The notes under the pieces were generated by a model. The model was not told where the DNA came from. It saw nothing but the letters and a program-made list of their open reading frames with translations, and made no database searches. This document shows, one piece after another, positions 9,382 to 31,912 of a stretch of DNA of 36,809 nt. Both the position numbers and the translations under genes were made by a program. The DNA is from a virus: IMG/VR virus record IMGVR_UViG_3300025286_000054, positions 1-36,809 of that record. One strand, written 5' to 3'. Numbering within the stretch: position 1 is the stretch's first letter; every line of letters begins with the position of its first letter.

Positions 9382-10245
9382 ATGGCACAGACAGCAACGA
9401 CGGGCAATCTGGAAAATGCCCAGAGGATCATTATCGCATCGGCGCGATATACAGAGGAGCATAACGCTCCAGCTATGGCACTTGCGGAGCAGTTCATTCT
9501 GCCCAAGGGTTCCAAGCAGGTGACTGTTCCCAAGGTAGGGCAAATGAGTATGTCCGACCTGGTTGACGGTCAGGACATTGTGGATGAGGAAGATATCGGG
9601 ATGACCACGGTAGACCTCACGGCATCAGAGGTGGGAGCCAAGATCATCATCACCGATAAGTTGGCGCGACAGAGTTCTGAGAACGTGTTCAGCATCATAG
9701 GTCGTCAGCTTGGCGACGGCATGGCACGGAAGAAGGACACCGACATGACGGCGCTTTACTCTGGTTTCAGCACCGACATTGGGGCTGCGGGCCGGCCCAT
9801 GAGCCTCGCCAACGTGTCTGCAACCGTTGCCTATGCCAAGGGCAACAAGTTCGGGTCACAGGTCTACATCGTCCAGCACCCGTTTGCGGTGTGGGATGTT
9901 GCGAACACAGCAGTGACGGCATCTAGTACCTACCCTGTGCCACACGGATGGTCAGAGGACCTGCTGGGGAACTTCTTCAGCGGACTCCGCCCCATCAACG
10001 GGGTGCCGATCTTTGAGGACGGCAATATCAGCATCGACTCCAGCGACGACGCTGTTGGTGTCTGCTGCGACAAGACGGCCCTTGCCGTACTGAAGAGCGT
10101 AGAGACCCGGACAGAGCGCCAGAGGGATGCTTCCCTCCGGGCCTTTGAGGTCGTTATGACCTCTGATTACGGCGTCTTTGAGCTGGATGATAGCAAGGGT
10201 GTCGCCCTCACGTTGGACGCAGGTACGCCCGCAACCTCTTCCTAA
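9382..10245 (+). CDS. Major capsid protein, HK97-fold type, 287 aa
   Basis: The start is marked by GGAGGTTAAGA before ATG. The product has the look of a short HK97-fold capsid protein: a brief N-terminal arm, a P-domain-like stretch (KQVTVPKVGQMSMSDL), a long spine helix (ENVFSIIGRQLGDGMARKKD, residues ~98-118), then the A-domain segment with HPFAVWDV and a central strand near FEDGNISI. It would form the icosahedral shell, assembling on the scaffold encoded just upstream. The gene appears richer in G+C with more C-ending codons than its neighbours, as expected for a highly expressed gene. Confidence 0.9.
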   Translation: MAQTATTGNLENAQRIIIASARYTEEHNAPAMALAEQFILPKGSKQVTVPKVGQMSMSDLVDGQDIVDEEDIGMTTVDLTASEVGAKIIITDKLARQSSENVFSIIGRQLGDGMARKKDTDMTALYSGFSTDIGAAGRPMSLANVSATVAYAKGNKFGSQVYIVQHPFAVWDVANTAVTASSTYPVPHGWSEDLLGNFFSGLRPINGVPIFEDGNISIDSSDDAVGVCCDKTALAVLKSVETRTERQRDASLRAFEVVMTSDYGVFELDDSKGVALTLDAGTPATSS

Positions 10246-27945: not shown

Positions 27946-27971
27946 GGGGCCAGGCCCGAAGGCCCAGCCCC
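27946..27971 (-). other. Hairpin with C(UUCG)G tetraloop
   Basis: On the transcribed minus strand GGGGC pairs with GCCCC and GGCC with GGCC around a UUCG loop closed by C-G, with a 2x2 internal loop. It lies between the 133-aa gene and the 25-aa ORF, and its foot touches the AGAGGT ribosome binding site. No T-tract follows, so mRNA stabilisation, processing or translational control fits better than termination. Confidence 0.7.
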
Positions 27972-27981
27972 GATAGTTTAT

Positions 27982-28383
27982 TTAGAGCCCTTGCAAGTCT
28001 CTGTGTCGCTCTCCGGATTCAACCGCATCCTCGACCTGGGCATAGACAGTATCCGCCATGCGTTCTTTACGCTCTTCTGCCTGGATGCGTTTCAACTCTG
28101 TGATGATGGACTGGCGATGTCGCATCATCTGGTCAACCACCTTGCCTGGTAGCTTCCAGATAGCCCCTCTGTACTCCACTTCATGGGTGAAGACACTCAG
28201 GTTCTTGCTGGTTCCCACCTCTCGGTCTGTCCGTACAAGGTAGTTGTGGTATTCCTGGCCCGCTTGGTCACTATCAGAAGAGAGCGTCATAACCTCGATA
28301 GGGACCACGCTTATCCGCTTGGCATGGCCTGGGTACGTCCCAGACCGCCGTACAGGGGCCTTCCCTTTCCTACGCCTACTCAA
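27982..28383 (-). CDS. Hypothetical basic protein, 133 aa
   Basis: The start is TTG 28383, placed four bases after GGAGGTG, which makes it convincing despite the rare codon. The first ~25 residues are very basic (SRRRKGKAPVRR). The middle has strands (ISVVPIEVMTLSSDSDQAG, SVFTHEVEYRGAIWKLPGK) and the C-terminal ~50 residues are one charged helix (RQSIITELKRIQAEERKERM). Possibly nucleic-acid binding. Structured element A lies immediately upstream. Confidence 0.65.
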   Translation of the reverse strand: MSRRRKGKAPVRRSGTYPGHAKRISVVPIEVMTLSSDSDQAGQEYHNYLVRTDREVGTSKNLSVFTHEVEYRGAIWKLPGKVVDQMMRHRQSIITELKRIQAEERKERMADTVYAQVEDAVESGERHRDLQGL

Positions 28384-28407
28384 TATGCACCTCCGATGCT
28401 ATTGTGT

Positions 28408-28458
28408 TAATCCGCCCGGCATAGGGGACCGCCTCCGGTCCACTATGACAGTGGATTA
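28408..28458 (-). promoter_or_regulatory. Structured intergenic element A (stop-codon-proximal)
   Basis: TAATCC (28408-28413) and GGATTA (28453-28458) bracket 51 bp. Inside are GCCCGGC (28414-28420), a GGACCG/CGGTCC hairpin (28426-28431 with 28436-28441), and a TCCACT/AGTGGA hairpin (28439-28444 with 28450-28455). The last two share bases 28439-28441, so they exclude each other. It begins right after the stop of the 139-aa gene and precedes the ribosome binding site of the 133-aa gene. Element B at 28901 shares its blocks. Confidence 0.6.
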
Positions 28459-28459
28459 G

Positions 28460-28879
28460 CTACCTAACCGAGCAAGGCACAAAACTGGAATAGTTGGTAT
28501 CATTCATTCCCGCCCCGCTATCGGCTATATAAAGGCTGCATCCTCTGGGGTCGCCCTGATGGTAGAAGTCCAAGCCGTTACGCTTGCAAACTTCCGCAAC
28601 CCTACGAAGCGCGCCGGTTTCTAGGTCATTAACCCTTGCCGTGTACGAGCGACCGCTAAACATATGTATATCGTGGTAGGGAATATCAGTGAGTTCATCT
28701 CTAATCAATGCGACCGTAGCGTAATCTGTGGTCCATCCACATGTGCGCTCTGCCCAGCGGTTTAACGTTAGCTCCGCCCTGCGTAGTGTCTCCGCGTCGT
28801 CAAAGTCAATGCGGGCCCCTGTGTGCTTGTAATGCCTGGCCATCAGGTCTCGCGTTTTGTCCCATGCTGTATGCGTCAT
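28460..28879 (-). CDS. Hypothetical protein, 139 aa
   Basis: ATG 28879 follows AGAGGTGACAGC. Residues ~28-60 contain a helix with Arg/Glu spacing (AETLRRAELTLNRWAERTCG). Residues ~92-120 read ALRRVAEVCKRNGLDFYHQ followed by GDPRGCSLYIA, a pattern I associate with small uncharacterised phage and plasmid proteins. Possible ligand or nucleic-acid contact at the DPRGC loop is speculative. The stop adjoins structured element A. Confidence 0.65.
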   Translation of the reverse strand: MTHTAWDKTRDLMARHYKHTGARIDFDDAETLRRAELTLNRWAERTCGWTTDYATVALIRDELTDIPYHDIHMFSGRSYTARVNDLETGALRRVAEVCKRNGLDFYHQGDPRGCSLYIADSGAGMNDTNYSSFVPCSVR

Positions 28880-28900
28880 GCTGTCACCTCTGATGATTGG

Positions 28901-28957
28901 TTAATCCCGCCCGGCGCTGGCCACAGCGTCCAGCTATGGCCAGGGACAGAGGATTAA
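28901..28957 (-). promoter_or_regulatory. Structured intergenic element B (related to element A)
   Basis: TTAATCC (28901-28907) and GGATTAA (28951-28957) bracket 57 bp. Shared with element A are GCCCGGC (28909-28915), CTATG (28934-28938) and GACAG (28945-28949). Here the internal pairs are CTGGCCA/TGGCCAG (28917-28923 with 28937-28943) and, excluding it, GCTGG/CCAGC (28916-28920 with 28930-28934). The TAA stop of the 49-aa gene is part of the outer GGATTAA arm. It precedes the 139-aa gene's leader. Confidence 0.6.
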
Positions 28958-29103
28958 CTATTCTTGGCTGCGTTGGCCGCGTCTATAATCGCCTCAATTA
29001 GGGGTAGAGCGGCGTCGCCCGTTTTCTCTGCGTTTCGTAGCTCCGATTCTAGGATGTCCAGCAGGAATTCGCAGAGGCTTTCATCTAACGTGATTATCTT
29101 CAT
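28954..29103 (-). CDS. Small acidic helical protein, 49 aa
   Basis: ATG 29103 follows GGGGTGACAGC and overlaps the previous stop by four bases (ATGA); an upstream extension of the frame to 29157 is inside the preceding gene and lacks a ribosome binding site. The product is helical (LCEFLLDILESELRNAEK, LPLIEAIIDAANAAKNS). No motif is recognised. Confidence 0.65.
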   Translation of the reverse strand: MKIITLDESLCEFLLDILESELRNAEKTGDAALPLIEAIIDAANAAKNS

Positions 29104-30052: not shown

Positions 30053-30259
30053 TTACGCTATGCGCTTGATTGGTAGGTCATGTGGACTTTCGTGCAGTAC
30101 ATCGCCCACTTGTGGTTGGCTGATAATCCACTCTCTTATGAAATCCTCAGTATCCTCTTGCAGTGCTAGGGTTGGGACTGACAAGGATGCTATCAATTCC
30201 TTTTCGGTAGCAACCCACGCGTCAGTGCAGGATCTATCATCTATTCTATAGACAGCCAT
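30053..30259 (-). CDS. Small hypothetical protein, 68 aa
   Basis: ATG 30259 follows AAAAGGAGAACGGA, which directly continues from the CAATCGATTG motif. The product begins MAVYRIDDRSCTDAWVATEK, has an acidic helix (ALQEDTEDFIREWIIS) and ends HDLPIKRIA. No motif is recognised. Confidence 0.65.
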   Translation of the reverse strand: MAVYRIDDRSCTDAWVATEKELIASLSVPTLALQEDTEDFIREWIISQPQVGDVLHESPHDLPIKRIA

Positions 30260-30270
30260 TCCGTTCTCCT

Positions 30271-30290
30271 TTTACCAATCGATTGTTATT
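30271..30290 (-). promoter_or_regulatory. CAATCGATTG leader motif, copy 1
   Basis: On the minus strand AACAATCGATTGGTAAA precedes AAGGAG and the 68-aa gene. The core CAATCGATTG is a perfect 10-bp palindrome. This copy occupies the gap between the stop of the 59-aa gene and the ribosome binding site. Confidence 0.65.
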
Positions 30291-30292
30291 TC

Positions 30293-30472
30293 CTACACTC
30301 CTGACGTCCAGTCGGTGAAGCCAAGCCTCTTCGCCCATTGTTTCAACGCCTCGCCCATTTCATCGTCTGGTTCAAGATCATATAGACGACCTATAATCTC
30401 AGCGTAGCTTGCGCAACCTACGCCGTTGCCGTCTTTGTCCTCTTCGGGAAAGTTTTCAAAGTAAATAAGCAT
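30293..30472 (-). CDS. Small acidic protein, 59 aa
   Basis: ATG 30472 follows AAAGGGGTGAGAG; the frame ends at TAG 30293-30295. The product is MLIYFENFPEEDKDGNGVGC, a helix (ASYAEIIGRLYDLEPDDE), then ALKQWAKRLGFTDW. Codon pattern, spacing and ribosome binding site mark it as real. Function is unknown. Confidence 0.7.
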   Translation of the reverse strand: MLIYFENFPEEDKDGNGVGCASYAEIIGRLYDLEPDDEMGEALKQWAKRLGFTDWTSGV

Positions 30473-31255: not shown

Positions 31256-31274
31256 TTCCTTTATTCCTTTTCCT

Positions 31275-31292
31275 TTTACCTATCGATTGTTA
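31275..31292 (-). promoter_or_regulatory. CAATCGATAG leader motif, copy 2
   Basis: On the minus strand TAACAATCGATAGGTAAA leads into AAGGAAAAGGAATAAAGG before the 247-aa gene at 31255. The second half of the palindrome differs by one base from copies 1 and 4. Confidence 0.65.
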
Positions 31293-31296
31293 CGTC

Positions 31297-31497
31297 CTAC
31301 TTGACCCTCTGTATTCGGCCATCTAATATCGTGAGTTCTGCAAACCAGTTCCGCACCATTGGGTTCGGCCCAACTACCGCATATGTGCCGTCACCTTTGT
31401 ACTCGTCCCCAAAGAAACTCGTCTCAATGAAATGCGGGACTGTTCCAACGGCCCCCTTCAATTCTTTCTTAGTCTTGAATCCTTCTATTCCTAACAT
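31297..31497 (-). CDS. Small phage protein, 66 aa
   Basis: ATG 31497 follows AAAAGGAGAAAAGAG and a CAATCGAT motif. The order GFKTKKELKGAVG, HFIETSFFGDEY, GTYAVVGPNPMVRNWFAELT and DGRIQRVK is a pattern I have seen in small uncharacterised phage proteins, in which VGPNP-x2-R-x-WFA is the most constant part. A binding role for that loop is possible; function is unknown. Confidence 0.7.
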   Translation of the reverse strand: MLGIEGFKTKKELKGAVGTVPHFIETSFFGDEYKGDGTYAVVGPNPMVRNWFAELTILDGRIQRVK

Positions 31498-31509
31498 CTC
31501 TTTTCTCCT

Positions 31510-31527
31510 TTTACCTATCGATTGTTA
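31510..31527 (-). promoter_or_regulatory. CAATCGATAG leader motif, copy 3
   Basis: TAACAATCGATAGGTAAA on the minus strand is followed at once by AGGAGAAAAGAG and the ATG at 31497. The sequence matches copy 2 exactly across 18 bases. Confidence 0.65.
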
Positions 31528-31531
31528 TAAT

Positions 31532-31588
31532 TCAAGTTCCTTGAATAACACATGGATACTTGGTGTAGTCTTGGAGTTCCTTCTCCAT
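31532..31588 (-). CDS. Possible 18-aa ORF carrying a duplicated fragment of the GP88-type gene
   Basis: ATG 31588 has only a weak upstream GGATAG. The frame encodes MEKELQDYTKYPCVIQGT. The DNA ATGGATACTTGGTGTAGTC (31552-31570) also occurs at 30814-30832 inside the 247-aa gene, in the same strand and frame (DYTKYP). It may be a gene remnant rather than a translated product. Confidence 0.35.
   Translation of the reverse strand: MEKELQDYTKYPCVIQGT
31552..31570. repeat. 19-bp direct repeat, second copy (first at 30814-30832)
   Basis: ATGGATACTTGGTGTAGTC is identical at 30814-30832 and 31552-31570, and the flanking CA also matches. Nineteen identical bases 738 bp apart on the same strand and in the same frame are unlikely by chance and suggest a small duplication. 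Confidence 0.8.
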
Positions 31589-31599
31589 ACCGAACTATC

Positions 31600-31875
31600 C
31601 TATAGCGCGTCAATCTGCGCCAGGAAGACTTGCACTTCGTCTTCAGTAAGCCATCCCACTACGCTATCGTGCCGGTGTTCAGTAATGGGTGTTTTTACAA
31701 TCTTGTCGTCGTACATAATCGCCAATTCCCAAAGCCCATCATCACCGCCGTAAGAGAAACGATGACATATCACCGACGCGCTGTATCGGGAACCTTCAAA
31801 GCGATAGATCCGCTGTATCCCACCGAGCTTGTGATATTCCTTAGATGGTTCATACCACCGCTGAACCTTTGCCAT
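31600..31875 (-). CDS. Hypothetical protein, 91 aa
   Basis: ATG 31875 follows GGGGGTAGGAA and a CAATCGATTG motif. The product looks like a small alpha/beta fold: RWYEPSKEYHKLGGIQRIYR, strands ASVICHRFSYGG and LWELAIMYDD, then a helix DEVQVFLAQIDAL. A single cysteine and several His make no clear site. No family is recognised. Confidence 0.65.
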   Translation of the reverse strand: MAKVQRWYEPSKEYHKLGGIQRIYRFEGSRYSASVICHRFSYGGDDGLWELAIMYDDKIVKTPITEHRHDSVVGWLTEDEVQVFLAQIDAL

Positions 31876-31887
31876 TTCCTACCCCCG

Positions 31888-31907
31888 TTTACCAATCGAT
31901 TGTTATT
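31888..31907 (-). promoter_or_regulatory. CAATCGATTG leader motif, copy 4
   Basis: AATAACAATCGATTGGTAAA on the minus strand precedes CGGGGGTAGGAAATG of the 91-aa gene and follows the stop of the 18-aa cysteine-rich ORF by six bases. It matches copy 1 over 20 bases. Confidence 0.65.
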
Positions 31908-31912
31908 TTTCG

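Follow-up and report, generated by a model that had tools for sequence, protein, structure and literature searches.

The intercistronic RNase III sites of T7-type phages are long hairpins with an asymmetric internal loop, situated between small early genes. Integron attC sites are palindromes with a variable middle that lie directly after a stop codon. T4-type phages have mobile regulatory cassettes (PeSL), which Arbiol is said to have described in 2010 (cited in PMC4177764); these are border stem-loops linked to module shuffling. The ESAS/SAS sequences of cluster K mycobacteriophages are imperfect inverted repeats (ESAS arms of 17 bp, spacer of 4-13 bp) found in several copies just upstream of start codons, in larger intergenic gaps of the non-structural half of the genome (PMC3203893). 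Phages also carry hammerhead type II and twister ribozymes (RF02276, RF02684; PMC3088659, PMC10085705); ribozymes of more than one class cluster at similar locations, and searching there revealed new classes (PMC10085705).

Here we describe two elements, A and B, of an uncultured phage. The window, that is, the whole 36.8-kb virus record that was analysed, looks circular because the near-identical contig L008 crosses its ends. Similarity of the terminase, GP88-like and exonuclease genes places it in a large uncultured phage group, so far known from metagenome contigs alone, many of whose samples may, judging by the sample numbers, be deep-sea viral. A terminase search of bacterial genomes gave no relative, and the only matches were distant phages. 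The genes around A and B form an early leftward block, or operon, of small genes on the minus strand, and the sense RNA of both elements is therefore the reverse complement of the given strand. The features of the region are the following.

27946..27971, minus strand: third large stop-to-SD gap, a plain hairpin GGGGCTGGGCCTTCGGGCCTGGCCCC immediately ahead of the SD, which belongs to a 25-codon ORF
27982..28383, minus strand: 133-aa gene downstream of A, TTG start at 28381-28383, no known family
28384..28407, minus strand: tail of A to the SD, which reads CCTCC on the plus strand (28390-28394) and serves the 133-aa gene
28408..28458, minus strand: element A, outer stem TAATCC/GGATTA (28453-28458 with 28408-28413)
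28447-28451 and 28414-28420, minus strand: internal loop of A, CTGTC / GCCGGGC
28420-28447, minus strand: inner hairpin of A, CATAG.GGACCG/CGGTCC.CTATG
28460..28879, minus strand: 139-aa gene between B and A, ATG start at 28877-28879, no known family
28880..28900, minus strand: tail of B to the SD, which reads CCTCT on the plus strand (28887-28891) and serves the 139-aa gene
28901..28958, minus strand: element B, outer stem GTTAATCC/GGATTAAC (28951-28958 with 28900-28907)
Within B, minus strand: internal loop CTGTC / GCCGGGC
28917-28943 in plus-strand numbering, minus strand: inner hairpin of B, CTGGCCATAGC/GCTGTGGCCAG
28954..29103, minus strand: 49-aa gene upstream of B, its TAA stop inside the outer stem of B, no known family

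The sequence blocks of A and B are absent from the third gap (27946-27971). Elsewhere in the window, a start-associated repeat, reading AACAATCGATAGGTAAAAGGAG in sense and containing the palindrome CAATCGATTG, lies directly before gene starts in four copies (30256-30294, 31260-31298, 31495-31533 and 31873-31911).

A and B resemble the T7-type sites in hairpin form and early-gene placement, with no sequence relation; the folded RNA of A has about 20 base pairs and that of B about 24, which fits the size of RNase III processing sites, for which they are candidates only. With attC sites they share the palindrome, the variable middle and the position after a stop codon; the core sites RYYYAAC/GTTRRRY are absent, with one mismatch each in B, and the elements E1-E7 of relatives, described below, are further off. 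PeSL carry an early promoter, whereas the gaps of A and B hold none above chance. The likeness to ESAS/SAS takes in the imperfect inverted repeat with variable spacer, the site just upstream of a start codon, the several copies and the larger gaps of the non-structural half; A and B differ in starting at the upstream stop codon, in their interrupted two-part stem and in their unrelated sequence, and have neither GGGATAGGAGCCC at the start codon nor 17-bp inverted repeats of the consensus (PMC3203893). The hammerhead II and twister ribozymes of relatives agree with A and B in slot, strand and size, but both cores are missing from A and B, and covariance models of the conserved core of each gave no match there. 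Nothing in the window reached the Rfam gathering score; A and B match no Rfam family, and the best permissive match in their region was a Brucella sRNA (E 0.05).

The initial annotation had presented A and B as related elements that start at stop codons and lie before the next ribosome binding site. On the coding strand each occupies the whole gap from a stop codon to the next SD, at which both end: A begins 1 nt past TAG (28460-28462), and the first stem of B contains TAA (28954-28956). Four of the blocks said to be shared were recovered on the plus strand (A / B): TTAATCC (28407-28413 / 28901-28907), GCCCGGC (28414-28420 / 28909-28915), GACAG (28447-28451 / 28945-28949) and GGATTA (28453-28458 / 28951-28956). 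CTATG, listed with them, is not an equivalent block: the inner hairpin of A has it as an outer arm, and in B it lies within that hairpin. In sense, both elements read UAAUCC-N-CUGUC, a hairpin that differs between them, GCCGGGC-GG(G)AUUAAC and a common tail to the SD, with UAAUCC-N-CUGUC as the common 5' side and GCCGGGCGG(G)AUUAAC as the common 3' side.

The similarity extends beyond those blocks and takes in the tail as far as the SD (ATTAAC.CAAT..CATC.GAGGTG). Global alignment of A with B gives z = 9.9 against dinucleotide shuffles, and none of 1000 shuffles reaches the real score; with two sequences only, the outer stem is displaced by one base in the alignment. As judged from this alignment, A and B are shown to be paralogous copies of one element. 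Paralogy of the downstream genes was ruled out as a source of the similarity, the 133-aa and 139-aa proteins being unrelated to each other. The 139-aa gene, with B on one side and A on the other, is present only in contigs near-identical to the window and is predicted to be an exchangeable cassette.

If RNA structure is what is selected, further copies with compensatory changes are to be expected. Pattern scans of viral contigs found the sequence type of A and B confined to the lineage of the window, in two near-identical contigs. The outcome is mixed: no copy of this type lies further afield, but relatives hold elements of the same layout. Two sequences, A and B, are too few for covariation statistics, and the relatives are fragmentary contigs, in which the absence of an element means little. 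Viral matches in L001 and L004 were chance hits. The sole match in bacterial genomes (L297:7115-7175) looks like a chance match in coding sequence, which, reading it by eye, we take to resemble rpoB.

Against shuffles, the whole elements fold on the sense strand with z of -4.0 (A) and -5.0 (B). The inner hairpins, which differ in sequence, are both perfect or near-perfect (z -4.1 in A and -5.2 in B). All folding was at 37 C with proteins and pseudoknots left out; the energies would differ for cold-water hosts. Two internal hairpins in each element had been proposed to exclude one another. Instead, one nested sense-strand structure dominates, with an MFE frequency of 0.46 (A) and 0.42 (B). Structures that avoid all inner MFE pairs are weaker by 10.7 (A) and 8.0 (B) kcal/mol, and those without any MFE pair by 10.7 and 14.4 kcal/mol; a near rival fold (3.6 kcal/mol) exists only for B on the non-coding strand. 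The SD of A is partly paired in a local hairpin, GCAUC/GGUGC. Masking the stop-codon region, which mimics a terminating ribosome, leaves predicted SD exposure at 0.62 in A and takes it from 0.65 to 0.60 in B. With alternatives 8-14 kcal/mol weaker, no predicted SD switch and no Rfam riboswitch match, a riboswitch-like function is not supported. The same holds for an attenuator: A and B lack a U-tract terminator, and promoter signals do not rise above chance.

The proposal of selection on structure fares better, since the inner hairpins of A and B differ yet re-pair, as do those of seven same-layout elements in relatives, whose downstream hairpin adds compensatory changes. On the coding strand, G-U pairs outnumber A-C pairs by 11 to 3 (one-sided p 0.03), an excess that points weakly to the sense RNA as the selected form.

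The seven elements (E1-E7) occur in contigs related to the window by their exonuclease: four at successive gene borders of L121, one in L122 and two in L170. A first pattern scan for this type gave mostly chance matches in GC-rich contigs and was real only in these three. Each element has the upstream stop codon at its start, a nested two-part stem, a variable but re-paired inner hairpin and the SD at its end, a layout that A and B also have. All seven keep a hairpin just downstream, CAGYGC...GCRYUG followed by GAGA, in which C-G has become U-A in one element and G-U in two. In most of them this hairpin and the 3' arm of the outer stem share bases, and exclusive pairings therefore exist in the E family, unlike in A and B. 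As read from alignments, the hairpin and GAGA are absent from A and B. An nhmmer profile of the E elements did not report A or B; the family link therefore rests on layout and on the similarity of B to E5 and E6 (pairwise z 5.7, which hairpin composition may inflate). B contains CCUGGCC...GGCCAGCGC, as do E5 and E6, and here too composition may account for part of the match. A and B may descend from the E family.

Gene order in L121 is P-E1-Q-E2-X-E3-Y-E4-Z and in L170 is P-E7-X-E6-Z; genes Q and Y are thus missing from L170, each together with one element. The 3' halves track the downstream gene (E7 matches E2 at 32/34 positions, E6 matches E4 at 35/36). The 5' half of E6 matches E3 at 20/22 positions, following the upstream gene, but E5 scores equally, and the 5' half of E7 is ambiguous. 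Blocks of DNA homology between the contigs start and stop inside elements, where the breaks of gene gain and loss fall. Given halves that follow their neighbour genes and homology blocks that end within elements, comparison of the contigs identifies the E elements as cassette borders.

In other relatives the same slot holds self-cleaving ribozymes, all on the sense strand.

L014:6135-6202, sense: hammerhead II, Rfam 46.9 bits, over cut-off
L059:1502-1573, minus strand (sense): hammerhead II, Rfam 43.5 bits, over cut-off
L107:1663-1717, minus strand (sense): Twister-P5, 37.9 bits against a cut-off of 37.6
L300:1501-1571, sense: weaker hammerhead II, 32.8 bits, below cut-off

Those of L014, L059 and L107 start 0-9 nt from a stop codon and are followed by an SD; the L300 hammerhead is placed likewise. 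L059 and L107 are close relatives of the phage (terminase identity 86% and 79%). Among 50 contigs of relatives, 4 gave a ribozyme match; many of the 50 are without this region. Intergenic elements at about 2038 of L107 (minus strand), 3865 of L110 (minus) and 554 of L122 (plus) align with the L014 hammerhead II. They share GAAA, a variable hairpin, UA, an 8-bp covarying hairpin with loop GGUUAGCCG, and CUGAUGA; stem II is weak or missing, and they fall below Rfam thresholds. These are possibly degenerate or unusual hammerheads.

Since relatives put self-cleaving ribozymes in the same gap, A and B probably take part in cutting neighbouring messages or keeping them apart, and not in switching. 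We tentatively favour, at somewhat less than even confidence, the reading that they are intercistronic structured RNA elements which separate or process messages at the borders of exchangeable gene cassettes; the slot ribozymes, the long interrupted helix and the keeping of stems rather than sequences lead us to it, and any cutting step is inferred. Counted towards this reading are the stop-to-SD placement, the A-B alignment (z 9.9) with unrelated downstream proteins, the fold z-scores, the E layout and its homology blocks, the slot ribozymes and the G-U bias. Counted against it are the E profile that did not report A or B and the small number of relative contigs with a ribozyme match. RNase III or another double-strand RNase could cleave the interrupted helix, which has roughly two turns; alternatively, the helix might cut itself or merely block exonucleases. 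The outcome would be a separate message with a clean SD for each small gene. Recombination within the element, a second role compatible with the first, would let gene cassettes be exchanged. If this is correct, RNA elements, self-cleaving ribozymes among them, punctuate the phage group's early operon of small genes that can be exchanged, which would give the puzzling ribozymes of phage genomes a natural role and explain cassette swapping without broken expression. A, B and E1-E7 would then be concrete candidates for new processing signals or ribozymes.

The borders might instead work as DNA, a role already suggested for other boundary elements of phages: the conserved arms would serve as short homologies for recombination that swaps small genes, and the hairpin would be incidental. 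The absence of Q and Y from L170, each with one element, the look of its remaining elements as hybrids of two L121 elements, and the flanking of the 139-aa gene by B and A all agree with this, but re-paired inner hairpins, strand-specific placement, G-U bias and slot ribozymes would go unexplained, and we consider it unlikely. In another reading, the next SD stays buried in the structure until a ribosome that terminates at the upstream stop opens it. This is suggested by masking in four E elements, which raises predicted SD exposure from 0.16 to 0.70 (E4), 0.54 to 0.76 (E5), 0.44 to 0.65 (E6) and 0.17 to 0.63 (E7), by anti-SD pairing in 7/7 E elements and by small local SD hairpins in A and B. 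Such coupling is nevertheless rather improbable: masking leaves A and B unchanged, E1 moves the opposite way, E2 and E3 hardly move, and A and B have no competing fold.

By analogy with ESAS, A and B could bind a protein, of phage or host, that acts in translation start or in message stability. The inverted repeat, whose arms are conserved and whose spacer varies, beside a conserved start-associated tail, and the several sites per genome in the non-structural half invite the comparison (PMC3203893), yet no binding protein is known, the two arms do not repeat a single site symmetrically and the sequence is unrelated to the cluster K consensus, which makes this improbable. We regard as distinctly improbable an undescribed self-cleaving ribozyme class, comprising A and B or all stop-to-SD elements of the phage group, that would cut the early polycistronic message between genes. 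In relatives, hammerhead and twister ribozymes occupy the slot in which A and B lie, several classes of ribozyme share such places (PMC10085705), and the internal loop CUGUC / GCCGGGC is conserved between two stems; but with only two sequences that conservation may be recent copying, the loop is not shared by E elements, and no known class is matched. Strong GC hairpins after stop codons could also be ordinary intrinsic terminators or chance hairpins. This is very improbable, since blocks are shared by two gaps and A and B lack the U-tract, whereas terminators of L010, in the same phage group, do carry T-runs. A promoter or terminator at A and B is rejected.

Two further structures were seen beside genes of relatives. 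At about 1150-1165 of L122, an element remnant (GGCGCTGAGAATCAAATG) precedes gene Z, the remainder of the element being gone. At 9797-9860 of the syntenic relative L010, a stop-codon hairpin of the same layout has an outer stem CTAGTTA/TAACTAG, an internal loop and an inner stem.
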